A stretch of 42,123 nt of DNA from Actinomycetota bacterium. Its GTDB lineage: Bacteria > Actinomycetota > Actinomycetes > Streptosporangiales > Streptosporangiaceae. Under the pieces are notes generated by a model. That model was not told the origin of the DNA and did no database searches. It saw nothing but the letters and a program-made list of their open reading frames with translations. Positions 2,673-16,196 of this stretch are shown one piece after another. Positions within the stretch are counted from its first letter, which is position 1, and the number at the start of each line of letters is the position of its first letter. The position numbers and the translations under genes are program-made. Where the stretch lies: assembly GCA_027306495.1 (NCBI GenBank), contig DAHUZQ010000156.1:1-42123 (forward strand), written 5' to 3'.

Positions 2673-3413
2673 TTACCTGAACAAGCCTGGCCGACCTCCG
2701 AGCAACGCCGTACCGATGCGCAGGTGTGTCGCGCCGGCCGCCACCGCCTCCTCCAGATCTGCGCTCATACCGGCTGACACCATCACCGCCCGGGGGTCAA
2801 CCCGCCGGACATCTGCCGCCAGCGCTGCCAGGCGGCCGAACGCCTCACGCGGCGGGACGCCGAGCGGGGCGACGGCCATGTTCCCCCCGAGCAGCAGGCC
2901 CCGTTCGCCGGCCACCTGGGCGGCGAGTCCAGCCAGGCGGCCGGCCGGGGCGCCGCCCCGGCCGGGCTGATCATCGAGACTCACCTGGACCAGGCAGGTG
3001 ATCTCACGCCCGGCCCGCCGAGCCTGTGCGCCCAGGGCAGCCACCAGCCGTGGCCGGTCGACGGAGTGGACAACGCGCGCGTAGCGGACCACGCTCCCGC
3101 ACTTGTTGGTCTGCAACTGACCAACGAAGTGCCAGGACAGCGCGGGCCTGAGGTCGGCACAGGCCGCTGCCTTGGGTGCGGCCTCCTGATCCCTGTTCTC
3201 TCCCACGTCGAGAACGCCGAGTCCGTGCAGCAAGCGGACATCGCTCGCCGGAAACGTCTTGGTGACCGCGATCAGCGTGACCTCGCGGGAGTCGCGCCCG
3301 GCGGCAGCGCAGGCATCAGCGATCCGGGCGCGGACCCGGGACAGGCTCGCGGCCAGTTCGGCGCGGCGTCCCGCTGATTCCCCCGCCAGCGGGCCGTCAT
3401 CTTCGGCTGGCAA
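2673..3413 (-). CDS. YggS/PROSC family pyridoxal 5'-phosphate-binding protein
   Basis: Encodes 246 residues. It is a single TIM-barrel domain of the alanine-racemase N-terminal fold. VTKTFP (about 50-55) contains the PLP Schiff-base lysine. WHFVGQLQTNK, VHSVDR, GMSADLEEAV and LRIGTALLG are family motifs. PROSC proteins have no known catalysis and buffer PLP in the cytosol. The start is a TTG at 3413: it is the first start-like codon after an in-frame TGA and gives the expected N-terminus, but it has only a weak ribosome site (GGTAAG). The gene starts 92 bases after ftsZ, where most actinobacteria carry pgeF, which is missing here. Confidence 0.93.
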   Translation of the reverse strand: MPAEDDGPLAGESAGRRAELAASLSRVRARIADACAAAGRDSREVTLIAVTKTFPASDVRLLHGLGVLDVGENRDQEAAPKAAACADLRPALSWHFVGQLQTNKCGSVVRYARVVHSVDRPRLVAALGAQARRAGREITCLVQVSLDDQPGRGGAPAGRLAGLAAQVAGERGLLLGGNMAVAPLGVPPREAFGRLAALAADVRRVDPRAVMVSAGMSADLEEAVAAGATHLRIGTALLGGRPGLFR

Positions 3414-3505
3414 TGGCTTACCGGATCAGCACGATCGCCGGTCCGCCCCGGCTGCCCCCGGCCGCGGGACCTGTGGCGGCCCGGCAAGGCCGGGTGCCCG
3501 CTGCA

Positions 3506-4885
3506 TCATTTGAGGAAATCGGGGACGTCGAGTTCGTCGTCATCCTCGAAGACCACCGACCGCCGCCGGGTGGTCGCCGCGTCGAAGACGCGGGCCGCCG
3601 CGGCCTGATCGGTACGCGGGCGGCCGGGCGTGCCCTCGTCCACCCCGGCACTCGCCGGCTGGTCCCGTGCCCCCGGAGCCTGATCCCCGGCATTGTCCGG
3701 GCCGGGCGCCCCGTCCGCGGCGTGCGCCTGCTCACCCGCGGGGCCATCACCGGCCGATGCGCCGGCGGCCCTGCCCGCGCCCTCCGGCGCCGGGTACCCG
3801 AGCGTAGCGGCCAGGCCGGACCCCGCCATCGGGTCGGCGCCCACGGCATCGCGGGGAGCCGGGAAGGCGGGCCGGGCACCCGCGCCGTCCACCGTGACCC
3901 TGCCCGCGTCCAGCCGGATCGGGTGGGCCGGGCGCATCCCGGTCTCATCGAACCCGGCCGCGATGACGGTTACCCGCACCTCGTCGCCGAGCGCATCGTC
4001 GATCACCGCGCCGAAGATGATGTTGGCCTCGGGAGCCGCGGAGTTGGCGACGAGCTGGGCGGCCTCGTTGATCTCGAACAGGCCCAGGTCCGACCCGCCC
4101 TGGATGGACAGCAGCACCCCGTGCGCGCCGTCGATGCTCGCCTCCAGCAGGGGACTGGAGATCGCCATCTCGGCGGCGGCCACGGCCCGGTCGTCACCGC
4201 GGGCCGACCCGATGCCCATCAGCGCGGAGCCCGCACCGGACATCACCGACTTCACATCGGCGAAGTCCAGGTTGATCAGGCCCGGTGTGGTGATCAGGTC
4301 GGTGATCCCCTGGACACCGGACAGCAGCACCTGATCCGCCGCCTTGAAGGCGTCGAGCACGCTGACATGCCGGTCCGAGATCGACAGCAGCCGGTCGTTC
4401 GGGATGACGATCAGGGTGTCCACTTCACCCCGGAGCCGCTCGATGCCCAATTCCGCCTGGGCTGCCCGCCGCTTGCCCTCGAACCCGAAGGGCCGGGTGA
4501 CCACGCCGATGGTGAGCGCGCCGAGCGAACGGGCCACGTTCGCGACGACCGGGGCGCCGCCGGTGCCGGTCCCGCCGCCTTCCCCCGCGGTGACGAAGAC
4601 CATGTCGGCACCCTTGATGACTTCCTCGATCTCCTCCCGGTGGTCGTCGGCCGCCCTGGTACCGACATCCGGGTCGGCCCCCGCCCCCAGGCCCCGGGTG
4701 AGCTCCCGCCCAACGTCCAGCTTCACGTCGGCGTCGCTCATGAGCAGTGCCTGCGCGTCGGTGTTGATCGCGATGAACTCAACGCCCTTGAGGCCCTCTT
4801 CGATCATCCGGTTCACGGCGTTGACGCCGCCCCCACCGATGCCGACGACCTTGATGACCGCCAAGTAGTTTTGCGGTGCTGCCAC
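3506..4885 (-). CDS. ftsZ: Cell division GTPase FtsZ
   Basis: Encodes 459 residues. The tubulin signature GGGTGTG lies at about 103-109, the T7 loop [11 protein letters not shown] at about 205, and the C-terminal SepF-binding peptide [11 protein letters not shown] ends the protein. Between core (to about 315) and tail is a Pro/Ala/Gly-rich linker of about 130 residues. FtsZ polymerises with GTP into the Z-ring. The GTG at 4885 was chosen because it yields [13 protein letters not shown], the standard actinobacterial N-terminus; an open extension reaches 4930 but is not expected. A 289-base gap separates it from ftsQ, the largest within the division cluster, so ftsZ probably has its own promoter. 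Confidence 0.97.
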
Positions 4886-5051
4886 GAGGAGGGCCCTTTC
4901 CGCTCGTTCCGCTACCGTGTGCCTGCCCACCTGCGTTTACTCTCAGTGGACCCGCTATCTGGTGAAAGCGGCCGTATCAACGGTCCACCGAAGCGCGCCC
5001 GAGGCGGCGGCCGGGGGCATTTACGCGATGTCCAGTGAGTTCAACCCTCAC

Positions 5052-5174: not shown

Positions 5175-5999
5175 TCATTGCTTGGTTACCGCTACCCCCG
5201 GCGTGCTGACGTCGTAGACATGCGCGTGGGTCCGCATGAGCACGGCCAGTTCGGCAGACTTCTGGCCCGCATCCCCGGGCTGGCCCCAATCGATGATCGT
5301 GCCATCGGCCAGGCCCACACTCACTCCCGCCGATGTCGCCGCGCTCAGCCAGCGCACCTGGCCCACGAGTGAGTGGGGCAGTTCCCCCAGCACCGCGGCC
5401 GCGGCACGCACCGCCGGATCGCCGGCCAGCCCGCCACGGCTTGCCGGGACAGTGAGCACAGGCAGCGGCGGGGCGCCGCGCGCCGAAGTCCGCACGGTCA
5501 CCCCGTCGGCGTCGACCAGCCGGTAATGGCCCGGCCTGCCGACCGCGAACAGGGGCACCCGCGGCCGTACCGTGATCACGACGGTGGCGGGCCAGTCGCG
5601 GCTCACCACGACGGATGCGACCTGCGAGATGTGCTCGACCCGCTGCCGCACCGCGGCGGCATTCACCCCGATCATGGGCTCGCCCACCGATACCTTCGCC
5701 GCCGCCAGCACCCGGGAACGGGGAACCAGCCTGTCCGCGCCGACCACCTGCACGGACCGGACGATCAGGAAGCGAGAGCCCAGCAGCGCCCAGGCAACCC
5801 CCGCGACCAGGCCAATCACCGCGACGGCGAGGCTGATGGCGCGCCAGGGATGCCGGCTCCCACCTTCGGGCCGGCGTGCCTGCGGGTGGCCCGGTCCGGC
5901 CGGCGGCCGCCGCGCTCGCCCGGTAGCGGAAGCCCGTTCCCCACCGTCCGCGGCGACAGCCGCGCCGGCGCCGGGAGCGCGCCGCCCGCCAGCGGTCAT
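5175..5999 (-). CDS. ftsQ: Cell division protein FtsQ
   Basis: Encodes 274 residues. A basic, Pro/Ala-rich cytoplasmic tail (1-52) precedes one membrane helix (about 54-77). The POTRA domain begins at FLIVRSVQVVGADRLV, and an FtsQ beta domain follows (VVVSRDWPATVVITVRPRVPL, YRLVDADGV). FtsQ joins FtsB/FtsL and PBP3 in the divisome, with its bulk outside the membrane. The ATG at 5999 overlaps the murC stop as ATGA, indicating coupled translation. The downstream gap carries regulatory candidates for ftsZ. Confidence 0.94.
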   Translation of the reverse strand: MTAGGRRAPGAGAAVAADGGERASATGRARRPPAGPGHPQARRPEGGSRHPWRAISLAVAVIGLVAGVAWALLGSRFLIVRSVQVVGADRLVPRSRVLAAAKVSVGEPMIGVNAAAVRQRVEHISQVASVVVSRDWPATVVITVRPRVPLFAVGRPGHYRLVDADGVTVRTSARGAPPLPVLTVPASRGGLAGDPAVRAAAAVLGELPHSLVGQVRWLSAATSAGVSVGLADGTIIDWGQPGDAGQKSAELAVLMRTHAHVYDVSTPGVAVTKQ

Positions 6000-7435
6000 C
6001 CGTGAGCCCCGGCCGGAGTCAGCATCTCCACGATCACCGGGCCGAGCGCGGTGATGTCCCCGGCACCCCTGGTCACCACCAGGTCCCCGGGGCCCGCCAG
6101 CGAGGCTGCGATGGCTGGCACTTTCGCGCGGTCCGGGATGAAGTGGCCACGTCCGCCGGGCACGGCGTCGGCGACCAGGGCGCCGGTCACCCCGGGCTCG
6201 GGGTCTTCCCGGGCAGCGTAGACATCCAGCACCACGGCTTCGTCGGCGAGTGCGAGCGCCGCCCCGAACTCGGCCGCGAACAGCCTGGTCCGGCTGAACA
6301 GGTGCGGCTGGAAGACCGCGACGACGCGGCCGCCGGGCCGGATCTCGCGGGCGGCGCGCAGGTCGGCGGCGATCTCAGCCGGATGGTGGGCATAGCTGTC
6401 CAGCACCAGCACCCCGCCCGCCTCCCCCTTGGGCTCCATCCGGCGCCGCACACCGCGATAGGCGGCCAGGCCGCCGGCAATCGCGCCGGCCGGAACCCCG
6501 AGTTCGAGCCCGGCTGCGTAGGCCGCCGCGGCATTGAGCGCGTTGTGGCGGCCGGGCACGGCCACGCTCAGGGACACCACAGCGGGGGTGCCGGGCGGTG
6601 CGGCCGGACCGGTGGTGACGTCCAGGCCGATGCGCATGCCATCGGGCCGCAGGCCGGTGATGCGGTAATCCGCCCCGGCAGCCGTCCCGTAGGTGCGGAC
6701 CCGGACACCCCCGCGCTCGCTCACCAGTTCCGCGAGCGCCCGGGCGCCGGGGTCGTCGGCGCAGGCGATCAGCGTCCCACCCACCGTGATCCGGCCGGCG
6801 AAGGCCGCGAAGGTGGCCTCGATGGCCGCCAGGTCCGGGTAGTTGTCGAGGTGGTCGGCGTCCACGCTGGTGACGATGGCCAGCTGGGGAGCCAGCATGA
6901 GAAAGGACCCGTCGCTCTCATCCGCCTCCGCGACGAATATGTCCCCCGCCCCGTCGCCCGCCCCGACGCCGGTCTCGGTCAGGATGCCGCCGATCACGTA
7001 ACCCGGATCGGCCCCGCTGTGCCGGAGCACGGTGGTGAGCATGCAGGTCGTCGTGGTTTTGCCGTGGGTGCCGGCCACCGCCACCCCGCGGCGGCCGAGC
7101 ATCAGCGAGGCCAGCGCTGCCGCCCTGTGCAGCACCCGCAGCCCGCGGCGGCGCGCCTGGGCCAGTTCGGGGTTGTCCGGCCGGATCGCCGACGACACCA
7201 CCACGGTGTCCGCGTCACCGACATGGGCGGCGGCGTGCCCCACCTGGACCCGGGCACCCGCCGTGGCCAGCGCTGCCAGCAGGCCGCCGGCCGCCGCGTC
7301 GCTGCCGGACACCGTCATGCCCCGGGCCAGCATGAGCTGGGCGATCCCGGACATGCCCGCCCCGCCGATCCCGATGAAGTGGACCCTGCCAAGATCGGCG
7401 AGCGGTACCGGGGCGACCGGCGGGACGAGTCCCAT
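5996..7435 (-). CDS. murC: UDP-N-acetylmuramate-L-alanine ligase MurC
   Basis: Encodes 479 residues. The N-terminal domain starts with RVHFIGIGGAGMSGIA (UDP-substrate Rossmann domain). The ATP loop GTHGKTTTT lies at about 121-129, then ADESDGSF and the C-terminal ligase motif SYAHHPAEI. MurC adds L-Ala to UDP-MurNAc in the cytosol, the first step of the stem peptide. Start codon ATG 7435 lies one base after the murG stop, and its end overlaps ftsQ by 4 bases. Length and motifs are normal. Confidence 0.97.
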   Translation of the reverse strand: MGLVPPVAPVPLADLGRVHFIGIGGAGMSGIAQLMLARGMTVSGSDAAAGGLLAALATAGARVQVGHAAAHVGDADTVVVSSAIRPDNPELAQARRRGLRVLHRAAALASLMLGRRGVAVAGTHGKTTTTCMLTTVLRHSGADPGYVIGGILTETGVGAGDGAGDIFVAEADESDGSFLMLAPQLAIVTSVDADHLDNYPDLAAIEATFAAFAGRITVGGTLIACADDPGARALAELVSERGGVRVRTYGTAAGADYRITGLRPDGMRIGLDVTTGPAAPPGTPAVVSLSVAVPGRHNALNAAAAYAAGLELGVPAGAIAGGLAAYRGVRRRMEPKGEAGGVLVLDSYAHHPAEIAADLRAAREIRPGGRVVAVFQPHLFSRTRLFAAEFGAALALADEAVVLDVYAAREDPEPGVTGALVADAVPGGRGHFIPDRAKVPAIAASLAGPGDLVVTRGAGDITALGPVIVEMLTPAGAHG

Positions 7436-7436
7436 C

Positions 7437-8561
7437 TCAGCCGACCCGGCTGCCGGCCGAATGCCGCGCCCGCCTGCCCGGCCGCCTGCGGATGATCTTC
7501 AGCACTTCCGCAGCCATCCGGTCGTCGCTGTCCCGCACGCCCATGCTGGCCGAGGCCTCGGACATGGCGACCACCCGGTCGGGATCCAGCAGGATGGGCA
7601 CGAGCACCCCCCGGATCCACTCCGGCGTCAGCTCCGCGTCATCCACGATCAGCCCGCCCCCGGCCGTCGCGATGGGCTCGGCGTTCAGCCGCTGTTCGCC
7701 GTTCCCGTGCGGAAGCGGCACGTAGACGGCGGGAAGCCCGACCGCGGTGAGTTCGGCGCACGTCATCGCGCCGCTCCGGCAGACGGCGAAGTCGGCCGCG
7801 GCATAAGCGAGGTCCATCCGGTCCACGAAAGGCACCGTGACGTATGGCGGGCCGCCCGGCGCGAGCCGGACCTCTTCCTCATTGCGTGGACCGAGGATGT
7901 GCAGCACCTGCACACCGGCTGCCCGGATGTCCTCCGCAGCGCCCAGGACTGCCCGGTTGACGGCACGGGAGCCCTGCGAGCCGCCGGTGACCAGCAGCAC
8001 CGGCAGATCGGGGCGCAGCCCGAAATAGGCGCGGGACTCATCGGTCAGCGCGAGCCGGTCCAGCCGCGAGATCTCGGCGCGCAGCGGGATACCGATGTAG
8101 GTGGCGCCCGGAAGGCCGGTCTCCGGCTGGCCGCTGAACACGTGATCGGTGAACCGCGCGCCCAGCCGGTTGGCCAGGCCGGGCCGGACGTTCGCGTCGT
8201 GGACCACGATGGGCACGTGGCGCCGCCGGGCCGCCAGGTACGCCGGGGTGGCGACGTAGCCGCCGAAGCCGACCACGATCTGCGCCGCCACCTTGTCCAG
8301 CACGTCGCCGGCGGCGGCAACGGCACCGGCCAGCCGGCCCGGCACCGTGAGCAGCTTCGGGGTCAGTGAGCGCGGCAGCGGGACGGCCGGGATCAGCTCG
8401 AGTTCGTACCCGCGCAACGGCACCAGCCGCGTCTCCAGCCCACGCGCGGTCCCCAGGCAGATAATCGGAATGGCCGGGTCGGCACGCCGCAGGGCGTCCG
8501 CAAGGGCCAGGGCAGGCTCGATGTGGCCAGCGGTGCCGCCACCGGCGAGTACGACGCTCAT
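7437..8561 (-). CDS. murG: Lipid II synthase MurG (GlcNAc transferase)
   Basis: Encodes 374 residues. It has two Rossmann domains: LAGGGTAGHIEPALALADAL at the N-terminus and LLVTGGSQGSRAVN opening the second. CRSGAMTCAEL and a Gln in GNGEQRLNAEPI fit the UDP-GlcNAc site. MurG transfers GlcNAc to lipid I at the inner membrane face. A TTG at 8579 is in frame, but AGGAG lies 9 bases before the ATG at 8561, which also gives the usual start MSVVLAGGGTAGH, so that start was chosen. It begins 14 bases after ftsW. Confidence 0.96.
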   Translation of the reverse strand: MSVVLAGGGTAGHIEPALALADALRRADPAIPIICLGTARGLETRLVPLRGYELELIPAVPLPRSLTPKLLTVPGRLAGAVAAAGDVLDKVAAQIVVGFGGYVATPAYLAARRRHVPIVVHDANVRPGLANRLGARFTDHVFSGQPETGLPGATYIGIPLRAEISRLDRLALTDESRAYFGLRPDLPVLLVTGGSQGSRAVNRAVLGAAEDIRAAGVQVLHILGPRNEEEVRLAPGGPPYVTVPFVDRMDLAYAAADFAVCRSGAMTCAELTAVGLPAVYVPLPHGNGEQRLNAEPIATAGGGLIVDDAELTPEWIRGVLVPILLDPDRVVAMSEASASMGVRDSDDRMAAEVLKIIRRRPGRRARHSAGSRVG

Positions 8562-8575
8562 CGCCAGCTCACTCC

Positions 8576-9934
8576 TCAATCACGCCGACGTTCCAGGCGC
8601 AGCCAGCTTAGGGCCCGCGGGGCCGATCCGTGTCCCGCTGCGGCAAGGGCGTCGGCCGCGCCCGGCTCCTGCCGGGCGAAAGCCATGAGCATGCCGAGTG
8701 TCACCATGGTCACCAGCAAAGATGACAGGCCGGAGGAGATGAGCGGCAGCGGGATCCCGGTGATGGGCAGCAGCCCGATCACCGCGCCGATGTTGACGAG
8801 CGCTTGGCCCACGATCCAGGCGACCGCTCCAGCGGCGGCCAGCCGGACGAAGGTGTCCTGCACCCGGCGGGCGATCCTGATGCCGGTGTAGGCGAGTACG
8901 CCGTACAGGAAGGCCACGCAGAGTGTGCCCACCAGCCCGAGTTCCTCGCCGAGGATAGCGAAGATGAAGTCGGTCGTGTCGTTGGGCACCCAACCCCATT
9001 TCGCCCGGCTGCCGCCGAGCCCGACCCCGAACCAGCCGCCCGACCCCAGCGCCCACTTGCCCTGGATGGACTGCTGGTTCGGGCCCACCGGGTTGGATGA
9101 GGGGTTGAGGAACAGCGCAAGCCGCTGGGATCGGTAGCCGGCCACCACGATCAGGATGAGCAGCACCAGGCCGATCATCGCCAGCATGCCGGCATACAGC
9201 CGCGCCGGGGTCCCGATCACCCACAGCAGCGCAAGGAAGATCAGCAGCAGGATGAACGTGGTGCCCAGGTCGTCGCCGAGCATCACCAGCATGGAGAGCA
9301 CGGCCACGCCGGGCAGCAGCGGGATGAGCAGGTGACGCCAGTCCTTGAGCTGGCCCAGCTTCTCCTTGCGGGCGAGCAGGTCTGCGCCCCAGAGCAGGAA
9401 GGTGAGCTTGGCCAGTTCGGAGGGCTGCAGCACGAGCCCGTGGAAGGCGATCTCACGGGCCACCCCGCCGGAGCTGTAGCCGATCCCGGGGACGTGGGTG
9501 AGCAGCAGCGCCAGCACCGTGAGGATGACCAGCGGGTAGACCATGCGCCGGAAGAACGCCGATGAGCGCCGGGATATCACCCACATGCAGGCGACGCCGA
9601 CCGCCACCCCGGCGGACTGGTGGAGGAACCCGGAGTACGGGGAGCCCCCCTGCGACAGCTGCTCCACCGAGGAGGTGGAAAGGACCATCAGCAGGCCCAG
9701 CGCGACCAGCAGGCTGGTGGTGCCGATGAGCAGATAGTACGAGGCCAGTGGCCGGGCGAGGGCGCTGCGCAGTCCGGTGGCCAGCCTGCGGGCGCCAGTC
9801 ACCGGGTAACGGGGGGTCCGGCCGGCGGCCGTGCCGCGCGTGCGGGTGCCGCTCCCCCGGGCCGCCGCGGGCCCTGCGCCGCCGGCCGCCTGCCGTGGAT
9901 CACTCGCGGCCACCGGCACGCTGGCTTGGTTCAT
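8576..9934 (-). CDS. ftsW: FtsW peptidoglycan polymerase (SEDS family)
   Basis: Encodes 452 residues from the ATG at 9934. About 60 N-terminal residues are disordered and basic. About ten membrane helices follow. Conserved SEDS motifs include HGLVLQPSELAKL, DLGTT, the loop GKWALGSGGWFGVGLGGS, FIFAILGEELG and GIPLPLISSGLSSL. FtsW polymerises lipid II at the septum together with its cognate class B PBP, here FtsI. A TTG at 9964 is an alternative start; neither start has a clear ribosome site. MurD, usually encoded immediately upstream, is absent. Confidence 0.95.
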   Translation of the reverse strand: MNQASVPVAASDPRQAAGGAGPAAARGSGTRTRGTAAGRTPRYPVTGARRLATGLRSALARPLASYYLLIGTTSLLVALGLLMVLSTSSVEQLSQGGSPYSGFLHQSAGVAVGVACMWVISRRSSAFFRRMVYPLVILTVLALLLTHVPGIGYSSGGVAREIAFHGLVLQPSELAKLTFLLWGADLLARKEKLGQLKDWRHLLIPLLPGVAVLSMLVMLGDDLGTTFILLLIFLALLWVIGTPARLYAGMLAMIGLVLLILIVVAGYRSQRLALFLNPSSNPVGPNQQSIQGKWALGSGGWFGVGLGGSRAKWGWVPNDTTDFIFAILGEELGLVGTLCVAFLYGVLAYTGIRIARRVQDTFVRLAAAGAVAWIVGQALVNIGAVIGLLPITGIPLPLISSGLSSLLVTMVTLGMLMAFARQEPGAADALAAAGHGSAPRALSWLRLERRRD

Positions 9935-10035
9935 ACCGCAAGTCTTAGGGCTGAGCCGGCTCAATCCCGTGACATCAGGCGCGTGTCGCGCACGAACCTG
10001 GCGTCATCCGATCGGGCCGATGGCGGCGGCCGCAG
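9935..10035. other. Short mraY-ftsW gap where murD is expected
   Basis: Only 101 bases separate the mraY stop from the ftsW start. In nearly all described dcw clusters an approximately 1.4 kb murD lies here. I see no MurD-like translation in any frame of the gap, and no insertion-element ends or repeats. The gap therefore looks like a clean loss or relocation, not a decayed copy. Confidence 0.75.
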
Positions 10036-11097
10036 TCAGGTCACCGCCCATTGCAGATAGAAGATGCACAGGCCGAGCGCCACGAACAGGCCGCAGATCA
10101 GCCAGAAGCGGATGACGATGGTGGTCTCCGCCCATCCCAGCCACTCGAAGTGGTGCTGCAGGGGCGCCATCCGGAACACCCGCCGCCCGGTCATCTTGAA
10201 CGATCCGACCTGAATGATCACCGAGAGGGCGATGATGACGAACAGGCCGCCCAGGATGCCCAGCAGCAACGCGGTCTTGGTGCACACCGCCAGGCCGGCC
10301 AGCACTCCCCCGAGCGCGAGCGACCCGGTGTCGCCCATGAAGATTCTGGCTGGCGGCGCGTTCCACCACAGGAAGCCGAAGCAGGCGCCGAGCACCGCCG
10401 CGGCCACGACCGCGAGATCGAGCGGGTCACGCACCGCATAGCAGTGGGGGGCCTCGAAAGTGGTGCAGTCGTTGCGCACCTGCCAGTTCCCGATCAGCAC
10501 GTACGCCGCCAGCACCAGGCATGCCGCTCCGGTCGCCAGCCCGTCGAGCCCATCGGTCAGGGTCACCGCGTTGGAGGTGCCCGCGATGAGGATGACGATC
10601 CACAGCAGGAACGGGACCAGTCCCAGCGTCGGCCCGAAGTCACGCAGGAAGGACAGGCGCGCGCTGGCCGGGGTGATGTCGTAGCCGTCGGCGAACTGCG
10701 GCTGGATCACCAGCAGGGCGAAGATGGCGCCGACGACGGCCTGCCCCGCCAGCTTCGCGCCACTGCGCAAGCCGAGACTGCGCTGCTTGTAGATCTTGAT
10801 GAAGTCGTCAATGAAGCCGACCACGCCAAGGCTCACCATGAGCCCCATCACCAGCAGCCCCGAGATGGAAGGCTGCTGGAGGGTGGCGAAGTTCCCGACG
10901 AAATAGCCGGTCACCGAGGCGATGACGATCACCGTCCCGCCCATGGTGGGCGTGCCCCGCTTGGTGGCGTGGCCAGCCGGGCCTTCCTCGCGGATCGCCT
11001 GCCCGTAACCGCGGCGCGTGAACACCCGGATCGCCAGTGGGGTGCCGAACAGGGCCAGGATCAGCGAGACCCCACCCGCGACAAGGATCGTCTTCAC
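10036..11097 (-). CDS. mraY: Phospho-MurNAc-pentapeptide transferase MraY (lipid I synthase)
   Basis: Encodes 353 residues with about ten membrane helices. Motifs: KRGTPTMGG (about 46-54), GFIDDFIKI with the catalytic Asp pair, [26 protein letters not shown] and APLQHHFEW. MraY transfers phospho-MurNAc-pentapeptide to undecaprenyl phosphate at the inner membrane. The GTG start at 11097 overlaps the murF stop as GTGA. Length is normal and no key motif is missing. Confidence 0.97.
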
Positions 11098-12482
11098 TGC
11101 CCGGCCTCTCCCGTCAGCGCGAGCGCGACCCGCTCAAGCCCGGCCGACCGCGATGCCTTCACCAGCACCACGTCGCCGGGTTCGAGCCGCTCGCGCAGCG
11201 CCGCCAGCGCCCCGGGCACATCGGGAACCGGCAATGGCTCGCCCCGCCAGCCAGCCTCGCGGGCAGCACCGGCCAGCACGGCGGCGGCTTCCTCCCCGAC
11301 CACGACCAGCCCGGCGACTCCGGCCCGGGCGGCCAGCCTGCCCACCTCCTCATGGTGATGACGGGACTCGCCGCCGAGTTCGTGCATCGGGCCCAGCACC
11401 GCGAATGACCGCCGCCCCCGGGCCATCACCGCCAGCGCGGAGATGGCCGCCGCCATCGCCTCGGGGTTGGCGTTGTAGGCGTCGTTGATCACCGTCACTC
11501 CGTCCGGCCGGTCCCGCACGTCCATCCGCCATTTGCTGCGCGGCAGGGCAGCCGACAGGCCCGCCGCGGCCCGGCCCACGTCCATGCCCAGTTCGCGGGC
11601 CAGTGCCGCCGCCGCCAAGGCGTTACTGACGTTGTGTTCCCCCACCAGCCGCAGCCGCACCCGGGCGCTTCCCTCCGGGAACGCCAGCGTGAACGAGGGC
11701 CGGCCCATCTCATCGAGGCGGACATCCAGCGCGCGGACCTGGGCCGCTCCGGCCCGGCCGAACGTCACCACCCGCGCGCTTGTCACCGCCGCCATCGCCA
11801 GGACCCGCGGATCATCGGCGTTGAGCAGGGCGACACCGCCGGGCGGCAGCGCGTGCGGCAGCTCCGCCTTGGCACGGGCGACCTGATCCACGCCGCCGAA
11901 CTCGCCGGCATGTGCGTGGCCCACACACAGCACGGCGCCGATGGCCGGCGGCGCGACCTCGCACAGTCGCGCGATATGCCCGGGTCCGCGTGCCGACAGT
12001 TCCAGCACCAGGTAACGGGTGGCGCTGTCGGCCCGCAGCACGGTCAGCGGATGCCCGATCTCGTTGTTGAACGACTCCGGGGGCGCGACGGTGGGCCCGA
12101 GATCCTCGGCCAGCTGCGCCGTCAGGTCCTTGGTGGTGGTCTTGCCGGACGACCCGGTGATGCCGGCGATGACCAGGCCCGGCAAGCGGTCCACGACCGC
12201 CCTGGCGAGCGCGGCCATCGCGGCGGGCACATCGCCAACGACCAGCGCGGGCACTCCCACGGGTCGGCTTGCCAGCACTGCCACGGCACCGGCCGCCATC
12301 GCCGCGTCCGCGAACAGGTGGCCGTCCGCCCGCTCCCCCGCCAGCGCGCAGAACAGCGCGCCGGGGGTGACGTGGCGGGAGTCGATGACCACCGGGCCGG
12401 TCACCCGCGCGGCAGGGTCACACACCTGGTCGAGCTCCGCACCCGTGATGCCGGCGATGGCCGCCAGCGGCAGTGGTATCAC
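11094..12482 (-). CDS. murF: UDP-MurNAc-tripeptide-D-Ala-D-Ala ligase MurF
   Basis: Encodes 462 residues. [21 protein letters not shown] marks the N-terminal domain; [12 protein letters not shown] (about 108-119) is the ATP loop; [20 protein letters not shown] and [12 protein letters not shown] are MurF hallmarks. It adds D-Ala-D-Ala to the tripeptide in the cytosol. A GTG start at 12482 overlaps the murE stop (GTGA), and the murF stop overlaps mraY in the same way, so murE-murF-mraY are probably translated together. Confidence 0.97.
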
Positions 12483-14113
12483 GGCTGCGCCTCCCAGCGG
12501 GCGCGATCTCCCTGATCGCGCTCACCCGCGGCCCGACTCCCATCACCGGGCGCCAGCCGGTCGGGGGCGCTGTCCCCGGGCTGGTGGCGGCGGATGGCGG
12601 CCCGGGCCACCTCCCGGTCGTCGAAAGGCACCACGGCACCGCCGACGTACTGGCCGGTTTCATGCCCTTTGCCCGCTATCACGACGACGTCTCCCTTGCC
12701 GGCCATGGCCACCGCCAGATCGATCGCGGCCGCCCGGTCCGGCTCGACGATGACCCGCGCCCGCTCCTGCTGGCCGACCGAGATCGCCCCGCCCAGCATC
12801 TCGCCAAGTATCGCCAGCGGATCCTCCGACCTTGGGTTGTCGCTGGTGAGAATGGCGAGGTCGGCAAGTCGCGCGGCGGCGGCCCCCATCAGTGGCCGTT
12901 TGGCCCTGTCGCGGTCGCCACCACAGCCCAGCACGATGGACAGACAGCCGCTGGTGACCGGGCGCAGCGCCGTCAGGACGGCTTCGACCGCACCCGGTTT
13001 GTGAGAGTAGTCCACCAGCACCGTGAAATCCTGGCCCGCTTCCACTCGCTCCAGCCGGCCGGGCACCCCCGGGCAGGCGGCGACGCCCGCGACCGCGGTG
13101 CCGAGGTGGACACCCGCCTCCACCAGTGCCACGACCGCGGCCAGGCCGTTCGCCACGTTGTAGGCGCCCGGCAGGACAAGGGATGCGTCGGCCTCCACCC
13201 CGCCCGGGCCGACGATCCGGAACGCGCTGCCATCAGACCCCGAGCGCACGTCGGCCGCCCGCCAGTCCGCCGACGGGTCGCCCGCCGCCGAGTAGGTGGT
13301 GATGGGTATCCGCGCCTGCGCAGATAGGCGGCGGCCATAGGCGTCGTCGATGTTCACCACCCCGACCCGCGCGAATTCCGGCGTGAACAGCGCGGCCTTG
13401 GCAGTGAAGTACTCCTCCATGGATGCGTGGAAGTCCAGGTGGTCCTGCGACAGGTTGGTGAAGACAGCGACGTCGAAGGCGGAGCCGGCGACCCGTCCCT
13501 GGGCCAGCGCGTGGCTGGACACCTCCATCGCGGCGGCCGTCACACCGTGCTCGGCCATCACCGCGAACAGCGCCTGCAACTGCGGTGCCTCGGGAGTGGT
13601 CATACTGCTCGGCACCGTCTGTCCCGCGATCCTCGTCTCCACCCCGCCCGAAACGCCGGTGGTGTGCCCGGCGCGGCGCAGGCCGGATTCGAGCAGGTAG
13701 GTGGTGGTGGTCTTGCCGCTGGTGCCCGTCACTCCGATCAGCAGCAGCCCGGCCGTGGGGTACCCGTACACCCAGGCGGCAACTTCGCCCAGCCGCGCCC
13801 GGGCGTCGCCGACCACGAACACCGGCAGCCCGCACTCCCGGGCCAGGTCCCGCCCCGCCCGGTCGGTCAGCACGGCGACCGCCCCCGCGGCCGCCGCGGG
13901 CACGCAGAACTCGGCGCCATGGTGCTCGCGGCCGGGCAGCGCCGCGTACAGGTCGCCTGGCATGAGAACGCGTGAGTCGTTCGCGATCCCCGTGACCAGC
14001 GGGCCAGCCAGCGGGCCGAACGGGTCGCCGGCCCCGGGCGCCGCGCCTAGCAAGCTGACCAGGCCGGCCAGTGGCCGGCCTGGGACGTGATGGGGACGCG
14101 GTTGCGCGGACAC
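12479..14113 (-). CDS. murE: UDP-MurNAc-dipeptide:meso-diaminopimelate ligase MurE
   Basis: Encodes 544 residues. The ATP loop GVTGTSGKTTT lies at 127-137, and FTAKAALF carries the Lys (K239) that is carboxylated in the family. DNPR at 425-428 is the motif of enzymes that add meso-diaminopimelate, so the peptidoglycan is predicted to contain meso-DAP. About 45 C-terminal residues beyond the domain are charged and look disordered. The GTG start at 14113 lies 19 bases after ftsI and has no clear ribosome site, so translation may depend on ftsI. Confidence 0.97.
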   Translation of the reverse strand: MSAQPRPHHVPGRPLAGLVSLLGAAPGAGDPFGPLAGPLVTGIANDSRVLMPGDLYAALPGREHHGAEFCVPAAAAGAVAVLTDRAGRDLARECGLPVFVVGDARARLGEVAAWVYGYPTAGLLLIGVTGTSGKTTTTYLLESGLRRAGHTTGVSGGVETRIAGQTVPSSMTTPEAPQLQALFAVMAEHGVTAAAMEVSSHALAQGRVAGSAFDVAVFTNLSQDHLDFHASMEEYFTAKAALFTPEFARVGVVNIDDAYGRRLSAQARIPITTYSAAGDPSADWRAADVRSGSDGSAFRIVGPGGVEADASLVLPGAYNVANGLAAVVALVEAGVHLGTAVAGVAACPGVPGRLERVEAGQDFTVLVDYSHKPGAVEAVLTALRPVTSGCLSIVLGCGGDRDRAKRPLMGAAAARLADLAILTSDNPRSEDPLAILGEMLGGAISVGQQERARVIVEPDRAAAIDLAVAMAGKGDVVVIAGKGHETGQYVGGAVVPFDDREVARAAIRRHQPGDSAPDRLAPGDGSRAAGERDQGDRARWEAQP

Positions 14114-14132
14114 GGGCGAAGGCTACCGCTGA

Positions 14133-16196
14133 TCACGGCACCGTGAGTGGCACGATGGGGCGCTTGCCGCCGTCCGGCGGAATCTTCAACGTCTGCAACG
14201 CGAAGCGCATGACCTGATAGAAAACGGGCCCCGCCACGGCGTTGCCGTAATAGCCGCCGCGGGTCGGGTTCTGGATGTTGACCGCGACCACCACCTGCGG
14301 GTCGCTGGCCGGTGCCATGCCAATGTAACTCGATCCGTAGACGCACTGGCAGGCACCCTCCTGGGCGGTCCCGGTCTTGGAAGCGACCGAGTAGCCGGGG
14401 ATCTCGCCCCACGGCTGCGCCGCTAGAGTCGCGTCGAGGTAGGGCACCTGCTGGAGCATCCGGATGATCGAGCGTGCCGTGGCCGGCTGGATGACGCGCT
14501 GGCGATGGGGGGCGGGAGCGGGATGGAAGTGCCCGCCGGGCCCGGTCGTCCCCGCCACGATGGACGGGCTGACCCGCACCCCACCGTTCGCGATCGTCGC
14601 GTACACGCTCGCCATCTGCACGGCGTTGACGGAAAGCCCCTGGCCGAACGCCTGCACATCCCGCTCGGTGCGCCATTTTCCGGCTGGCCAGACGGTTCCG
14701 CTGGTCGCGTCCGGCAGCGGCAGGCCGGTCGGCTGGCCAAGCCCGAAATTCATCAGGTAGTCATGCTGGAGTTGCGGGCTGATGGTGTGCGCGACCTGCA
14801 CCATGCCGACATTGCTGGAATGAGCCAGGATCCCGGCGAGGGTGAGCCGCTCGACGGGATGGTAGTCGGCGTCGTGGAAGGTGAAGCCGTCCATGGTGAG
14901 CTGGTACGGCACCGTGTACGGGCTGAGCGGCGTCTGGCCGCCATGTTCGAGCGCGGCCGCCACGGTGATGACCTTCGCGGTGCTGCCCGGCGGGAACTCG
15001 TCGGCGACCGGCACGTCCACGGTGGAGGCCAGGCTGGTGACGTGCGAGGGATCGAAGTTGGGCGCCTGGGCGAGTGCGAGGATCCGCCCCGTGGCGGGCT
15101 GTATCACCACGACGCTGCAGTTGGACGCCTTGAACGTGCGGATGTCCGCGGCGCAGGCCTGCTGTGCCTTCCATTGCAGGGCGGACAGGATGGTGAGCCG
15201 GACGTTTCCGCCGGGGATCACGGGCCGGACCCGGTCCATCGCCAGCGGGATCGGCTGGCCGGTGGCGCCCGTCTCGACGTGCTGGACACCGTCACGGCCG
15301 GCCAGCAACCGGTTGAAAGACTCCTCGATTCCCGCTTCGCCGACCATGTCTCCGGCACCGTTGACATCGGTGAACCCGACCAGGTTGGAGGCCAGGTCGC
15401 CGTTGGGGTAGGCACGGGTGTAGGCCGGCTGGAGGTAGATGCCGCCGACGTTCAGGTGGTTCATCAGGTCGGCGATGCGCGTGCCGGTGGTGGCGGGCAC
15501 CCCGGAGGCCAGCAGCACATATTGCGGATCGGTCGGGTGATTCAGCATGTGGTCGATGGTGGCCGCGCTCATGTGCAGCGGGCCCGCCAGGGCGGAGGCC
15601 ACCTGCTGGCGCAGTGCCACCGTGGCAGCTCTGGTCGTCCCCTCGATCTGCGGCGGGTCCGCGGTCACCGTGTCGGTCTGGATGGTCATCGCCAGGACTG
15701 TTCCATCGGCCGTGGTGATCTCCCCGCGCTGGGCGGGGATCCGTATCCGCTGGATCCACAACCGCTGCGCATCAGCGCGGTAACTGGCCCAGTCGAGACC
15801 CTGCATCTGCACGAGCCTCACCGCGACCAGTGACAGAGCGAACCCCACACACAGCATGCCAAGCCGCAGGCGCCGGTACGGGTTGCTGCGGCTCAGCCCC
15901 GCGCGCCGGGCTGCGCCCGCCATCCCCGCCCGCGCCGAGCCACCGAACCTGCCCGACCGCGTGGCGGTGCGGTGGCCCGGCGGGATGCCACCGGGCGGGA
16001 TGCCACCGGGCGGGATGCCACCGGGCGGGATGCCACCGGGCGGGATGCCACCGGGCGACCGGTCCCACTGACGCGGCCCCGGGCCGGCGTCGCGGGCACG
16101 TCCGCCGCCCGGCCCGCGCGGGCCGCGTGGGGCCGGCGGCCGGCTGGTCGGCTTAGGGCGGCCCCGGCTGTCCCGGGGACCGCGCCCGTCCCTCAC
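14133..16196 (-). CDS. ftsI: Division-specific class B penicillin-binding protein FtsI (PBP3)
   Basis: Encodes 687 residues. A 110-residue basic, Pro/Gly-rich cytoplasmic tail contains five GGIPP units (about 48-74). A membrane helix (about 111-130), the PBP dimerisation domain and the transpeptidase domain follow. Catalytic motifs are STAK with Ser405, SSN at 460-462 and KTGT at 607-610. No PASTA domains are visible. FtsI crosslinks septal peptidoglycan with FtsW. The GTG start at 16196 overlaps the ftsL stop (GTGA). The PPG-rich tail is longer than usual and is made by a DNA tandem repeat. Confidence 0.96.
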   Translation of the reverse strand: MRDGRGPRDSRGRPKPTSRPPAPRGPRGPGGGRARDAGPGPRQWDRSPGGIPPGGIPPGGIPPGGIPPGGIPPGHRTATRSGRFGGSARAGMAGAARRAGLSRSNPYRRLRLGMLCVGFALSLVAVRLVQMQGLDWASYRADAQRLWIQRIRIPAQRGEITTADGTVLAMTIQTDTVTADPPQIEGTTRAATVALRQQVASALAGPLHMSAATIDHMLNHPTDPQYVLLASGVPATTGTRIADLMNHLNVGGIYLQPAYTRAYPNGDLASNLVGFTDVNGAGDMVGEAGIEESFNRLLAGRDGVQHVETGATGQPIPLAMDRVRPVIPGGNVRLTILSALQWKAQQACAADIRTFKASNCSVVVIQPATGRILALAQAPNFDPSHVTSLASTVDVPVADEFPPGSTAKVITVAAALEHGGQTPLSPYTVPYQLTMDGFTFHDADYHPVERLTLAGILAHSSNVGMVQVAHTISPQLQHDYLMNFGLGQPTGLPLPDATSGTVWPAGKWRTERDVQAFGQGLSVNAVQMASVYATIANGGVRVSPSIVAGTTGPGGHFHPAPAPHRQRVIQPATARSIIRMLQQVPYLDATLAAQPWGEIPGYSVASKTGTAQEGACQCVYGSSYIGMAPASDPQVVVAVNIQNPTRGGYYGNAVAGPVFYQVMRFALQTLKIPPDGGKRPIVPLTVP
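15976..16050. repeat. Five tandem 15-bp repeats inside ftsI
   Basis: Five head-to-tail copies of CCGGGCGGGATGCCA; the first copy starts CCCGGC and the others are identical. Each encodes GGIPP on the minus strand, so copy-number change keeps the frame. It lies in the cytoplasmic tail of FtsI. Near-perfect identity suggests recent expansion by slippage. Confidence 0.95.

Follow-up and report, generated by a model that had tools for sequence, protein, structure and literature searches.

Introduction

The MurD2/MurL pathway of cell wall synthesis is known from Xanthomonas oryzae (XOO_1320/XOO_1319), and orthologues from Micromonospora sp. and Salinispora tropica have also been tested (PMC8788868, PMC5808125). 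According to reviews of the pathway, MurL has no known domains (PMC8788868, PMC5808125); its ATP-to-AMP chemistry has been proposed to proceed via an adenylate, and the pathway itself has been put forward as a target for narrow-spectrum drugs (PMC8788868). Four positions of Escherichia coli MurD (182, 348, 414, and 416) differ in MurD2. In the X. oryzae enzyme, R358 (equivalent to K348) and E197 (equivalent to D182) are reported to set the specificity for L-glutamate (L-Glu), the E197D change altered this specificity, and the K319T substitution makes E. coli MurD accept L-Glu (PMC8788868).

In this study, we analyzed a stretch of 42,123 nucleotides (hereafter, the window) from an actinomycetotal genome of the family Streptosporangiaceae (contig DAHUZQ010000156.1, assembly GCA_027306495.1), in which murD is absent from the division and cell wall (dcw) gene cluster. 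Our results make it very probable that this lineage gave up its native murD when it switched to the already known MurD2/MurL pathway, whose range would thereby come to include a Trebonia-like clade of the Streptosporangiaceae. The observations behind this interpretation are the absence of murD from its site, the position of the remaining ligase gene beside murL, the lack of a detectable glutamate racemase (MurI), the co-occurrence of these features in the family, a phylogenetic split between the two ligases, and a set of diagnostic residues. The clade is not named in the open-access reviews of the pathway (PMC8788868, PMC5808125); wider MurL surveys may exist.

The murL-murD2 locus

The source genome is a 3.38 Mb draft of 252 contigs, estimated to be 91% complete. 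In the profile search of this genome, the sole MurD over the cut-off was found on contig C34 (492-1865; TIGR01087, 276 bits), and the sequence directly upstream codes for the C-terminal portion of a MurL homologue (NF041275, E 1.8e-38), the remainder of which is located at the end of contig C48. Because the ends of the two contigs overlap by exactly 79 bases and the joined murL is one open frame, the gene order across C48 and C34 can be read as pgeF, murL, murD2, a gene for a flavin adenine dinucleotide (FAD) enzyme resembling D-2-hydroxyglutarate dehydrogenase, and rsmD. The two pieces of MurL score 132 and 209 bits against NF041275, and the full-length proteins of other clade members score 316-347 bits. 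The source MurL is 42% identical to that of X. sacchari over 85% of the query; the X. sacchari MurL and MurD2 sequences were obtained from a plasmid search for MurL, and annotation treats this MurD2 as an ordinary D-glutamate ligase.

Based on homology to the tested Xanthomonas, Micromonospora, and Salinispora enzymes, MurD2 would add L-Glu during the synthesis of the wall precursor, and MurL, encoded directly upstream, would then turn the attached L-Glu into D-glutamate (D-Glu) using ATP. We infer that in the source organism MurL probably adenylates the alpha-carboxylate, after which the alpha-carbon would invert and AMP would be released by hydrolysis. Free D-Glu, MurI, and canonical MurD would thereby become dispensable, and we also infer that murL-murD2 was gained before murD and murI were lost. 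As in X. oryzae, murL and murD2 are adjacent, MurI is missing, and Arg, Pro, and Phe occupy positions 348, 414, and 416; unlike that system, the source ligase has Asp rather than Glu at 182 and Leu at 319, its block is of a type usually preceded by pgeF, and MurD is missing from the dcw cluster. With the canonical MurD and MurI route, used by E. coli and most Streptosporangiaceae, the source shares the Mur ligase fold (TIGR01087 over the cut-off) and the same expected final intermediate, but it lacks MurI, its ligase falls on a separate branch with both K319 and K348 replaced, and the gene is placed outside the dcw cluster beside murL.

In the neighborhood of this locus, pgeF lies directly 5' of murL (L014:5803-6660, on C48) and not at the frequent site between ftsZ and ylmE (3414-3505 of the window). 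The FAD enzyme is encoded at L009:1849-3207, on C34, and in 16 of 61 named loci the same type of enzyme occurs, in either orientation, no more than 3.2 kb 3' of murL.

Phylogeny and diagnostic residues of the ligase

The sequence-only reading of the window had proposed that the clean loss of murD, without debris, suggests relocation, or else that another ligase carries out the step. A murD gene does lie elsewhere, as a single copy on C34, and the gap carries no debris; that this copy is the relocated native gene was tested by phylogeny and rejected. In a tree of 117 sequences, which includes the long branches of E. coli and Xanthomonas, the 85 MurL-linked and the 32 canonical ligases fall on opposite sides of one branch (Shimodaira-Hasegawa-like approximate likelihood ratio test, 99), and a smaller tree without E. 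coli and Xanthomonas supports the MurD2/MurD split at 100/100 (bootstrap 100). The C34 gene does not group with the family's own dcw murD and is placed with the MurL-linked MurD2; forcing it into the former group costs 580 log-likelihood units (approximately unbiased (AU) test, p 6e-6), and forcing six MurD2 genes of the family together with native murD gives p 5.6e-33. The second of the two options is thus the better one, with MurD2 and the epimerase MurL as the likely replacement of MurD and MurI.

The residues point in the same direction. In E. coli numbering, the C34 ligase carries K348R, A414P, L416F, and K319L, and has Asp at 182. Position 348 is Arg in 85/85 MurL-linked sequences and Lys in 28/30 canonical actinobacterial ones, whereas position 319 is Leu or Ile in 85/85 of the former and Lys in 30/30 of the latter; the A414P and L416F changes are present in most MurL-linked sequences. 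In this set, position 319 appears to be the cleanest marker between MurD2 and MurD, bearing in mind that it was spotted post hoc and that the sequences share ancestry. Asp is found at 182 in 84 of the 85 MurL-linked sequences, with Glu in X. sacchari only. In this alignment, which does not contain the tested Micromonospora and Salinispora MurD2 sequences, residue 182 thus seems not to be a defining feature of the actinobacterial MurD2 branch.

Distribution of MurL and loss of MurI

MurL was identified in 18 of 297 genomes of the family, representing 9 of its 68 genera, and murD adjoins murL in all 18. MurI was found in none of these 18 genomes. In the source genome, it was not detectable by the profile search, which gave a match in 10 of 14 control genomes; among 40 relatives, the four additional MurL-positive genomes all lack MurI, and 35 of the 36 MurL-negative ones have a match. 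The tree built from six dcw proteins unites eight MurL-positive genomes in one clade (FastTree support 1.0), and a single switch in their common ancestor is therefore the simplest explanation. As a separate observation, genome G035, of the same class and 96% complete, has murD in its dcw cluster, with neither MurI nor MurL detected.

In a wider search, from which the best 80 of 190 confirmed stretches were retained, MurL homologues are present in named members of Frankia, Protofrankia, Pseudofrankia, Motilibacter, Blastococcus, Modestobacter, and Kineosporia, in Trebonia kvetii, and also in metagenome-assembled genomes of Nakamurella and Acidimicrobiia. In the named loci whose downstream DNA was long enough, murD2 directly follows murL in every case (77/77), and 41 of 72 have pgeF directly ahead of murL in the same orientation. 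When 20 named MurL-positive genomes were searched for MurI, one clear full-length match was found (Pseudofrankia sp. BMG5.36), together with a partial match in P. asymbiotica and only weak partial matches in six more. The two Pseudofrankia loci (L166 and L168) show the order murL-murD2-pgeF, one genome having the full-length MurI and the other the partial match; in this genus, both routes to D-Glu may coexist.

Other arrangements were also observed. In Frankia sp. CIT1 and Candidatus Frankia meridionalis (L110 and L114, approximately 7000-14600), pgeF-murL-murD2 lies between mraY and ftsW, that is, at the canonical murD position that is empty in the window, and the block includes a reversed FAD enzyme. 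A mobilizable plasmid of Pseudonocardia alni (L205, 3971-5371) codes for a distant MurL homologue with 32% identity, and similar distant homologues are present on two other Pseudonocardia plasmids, none of them with a MurD neighbor.

Predicted fold of MurL

The MurL model built from 12 clade sequences has a mean predicted local distance difference test score of 80 and a predicted template modeling score of 0.86. Its best structural alignments are with QatC (Z 16.6; 307 residues aligned) and then QueC (Z 12.9; 202 residues), other PP-loop enzymes coming next at about Z 8; a sequence search against solved structures gave nothing meaningful. The predicted model has the PP-loop fold with a GGGxDS loop, which corresponds to an invariant GGGIDS motif in MurL (G138-G140, D142, and S143). 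MurL shares these predicted features with the ATP-using PP-loop enzymes QueC, QatC, and LarE, but these are only 11-13% identical to it and act on other substrates, so that the likeness of a predicted model implies no function. The predicted fold fits the cleavage of ATP to AMP by MurL, and a fold as such gives no activity. It is conceivable, although we regard it as rather unlikely, that pgeF-murL-murD2 forms a functional unit in which the peptidoglycan editing factor PgeF, retained next to the L-Glu route, clears wrong or unflipped UDP-MurNAc-peptides, and that MurL is an adenylating enzyme of the QueC/QatC type turned epimerase.

Organization of the dcw cluster

Profile searches confirmed that the rest of the cluster keeps the usual order, mraW-ftsI-murE-murF-mraY-ftsW-murG-murC-ftsQ-ftsZ-ylmE-sepF, where ftsI stands for an ftsI-like penicillin-binding protein (Table 1). 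The absence of murD, as claimed from the sequence alone, follows from the ends of its two neighbors: the mraY stop lies at 10036 and the ftsW start at 9934, both on the minus strand, leaving a spacing of 101 bases. We looked in this gap for murD debris and for promoter-like or terminator-like sites, and found none; Rfam families and tRNAs were likewise searched for in the window, with none detected. The ftsW score is slightly below the TIGR02614 cut-off of 337.5 bits, and the gene was named by its best NCBIfam match.

Table 1. Coordinates in the window of the murD site and of the surrounding dcw genes.
Feature	Position	Strand	Profile match or remark
Intergenic gap between mraY and ftsW (murD site in MurL-negative relatives)	9935-10035	.	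101 bases
mraY, left flank of the absent murD	10036-11097	-	TIGR00445, 302 bits
ftsW (FtsW/RodA family), right flank, ATG at 9934	8576-9934	-	TIGR02614, 329 bits
murF	11094-12482	-	TIGR01143, 402 bits
murE	12479-14113	-	NF001124, 587 bits
murG	7437-8579	-	TIGR01133, 265 bits
murC	5996-7435	-	TIGR01082, 439 bits
ftsZ	3506-4930	-	TIGR00065, 415 bits
ylmE (YggS family), immediately 3' of ftsZ, no pgeF between	2673-3413	-	TIGR00044, 130 bits

Among the relatives whose cluster was read, all 8 MurL-negative genomes of the family have a murD of approximately 1.35-1.4 kb between mraY and ftsW, and none of the 7 MurL-positive ones does. The spacing without murD is thus common to the MurL-positive lineage, which bears out the earlier suggestion that a whole lineage might share it.

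In other MurL-positive members of the clade, the empty site is occupied by unrelated genes (L180:6898-13712, L176:6301-10792, and L174:6558-10752), the insertions being a BTAD/STAND regulator in T. kvetii, acyltransferase-SGNH, and a PIG-L deacetylase; for this reason, the site appears to be open to insertion. The loss of pgeF from the dcw cluster was considered as a hallmark of the switch and rejected, given that the only pgeF detected is also elsewhere in 4 of the 8 MurL-negative relatives.

Alternative explanations

It is important to consider that several facts weigh against the proposed switch. With a completeness of 91%, the absence of MurI in the source genome alone is no proof; MurL is below the curated cut-off of 700 bits of NF041275, an equivalog model built for Xanthomonadales (MurL_Xanthmoales); the C34 ligase retains Asp at 182, where the X. 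sacchari enzyme has Glu; and a class IV aminotransferase (on C200) is a sub-threshold match to the D-amino-acid transaminase model. The last two would favor a different explanation, in which the linked ligase draws on D-Glu from a transaminase or racemase that escaped recognition and MurL has another role. This aminotransferase leaves a small opening for the synthesis of D-Glu, although it fits the branched-chain aminotransferase models better (239 bits versus 133-151 bits), and similar matches below the cut-off occur in MurL-negative relatives, whereas the strict pairing of murL with murD2 and the loss of MurI fit the published pathway. We therefore consider such a source of D-Glu very unlikely.

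We assign an even lower probability to a simple relocation, in which the native canonical murD moved and still uses D-Glu from MurI; although the single murD over the cut-off is indeed elsewhere, it groups with MurD2 (native grouping being rejected by the AU test described above), carries residues of the MurD2 type, and has MurL as its neighbor in a genome where MurI is absent. Equally improbable is an artefact, whether murD was dropped in the assembly or C34 and C48 are foreign contigs in the bin. The genome is a draft of many contigs, with murL divided between the ends of two of them, but murD is likewise absent from the mraY-ftsW interval of the seven other MurL-positive genomes, which makes an assembly deletion, the condition that the sequence-only reading had named as its refutation, very unlikely in the window. 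Mis-binning is unlikely because C34 and C48 resemble the window in composition (G+C of 0.73 and 0.72 versus 0.71, with a tetranucleotide r of 0.99). For the genes on C34 and C48, the nearest counterparts are in clade members (G045, 75% identity for murL and 81% for murD2; G057, 76%), and the same is true of the dcw genes of the window.

Implications

The signature at position 319 may provide a simple way to separate MurD2 from MurD, unlike present annotation, and the predicted fold of MurL suggests an origin for its unexplained ATP chemistry. If pgeF-murL-murD2 is a functional unit, a reading that we regard as rather unlikely, the dcw block of Frankia would show how canonical murD was exchanged at its own site in one lineage but disappeared altogether in another. 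The likely range of the pathway is widened to Frankia, Protofrankia, Blastococcus, Modestobacter, Kineosporia, Motilibacter, and Acidimicrobiia, and what appeared to be a missing essential gene becomes the prediction of an alternative cell wall pathway for a soil lineage that includes the cultured T. kvetii.
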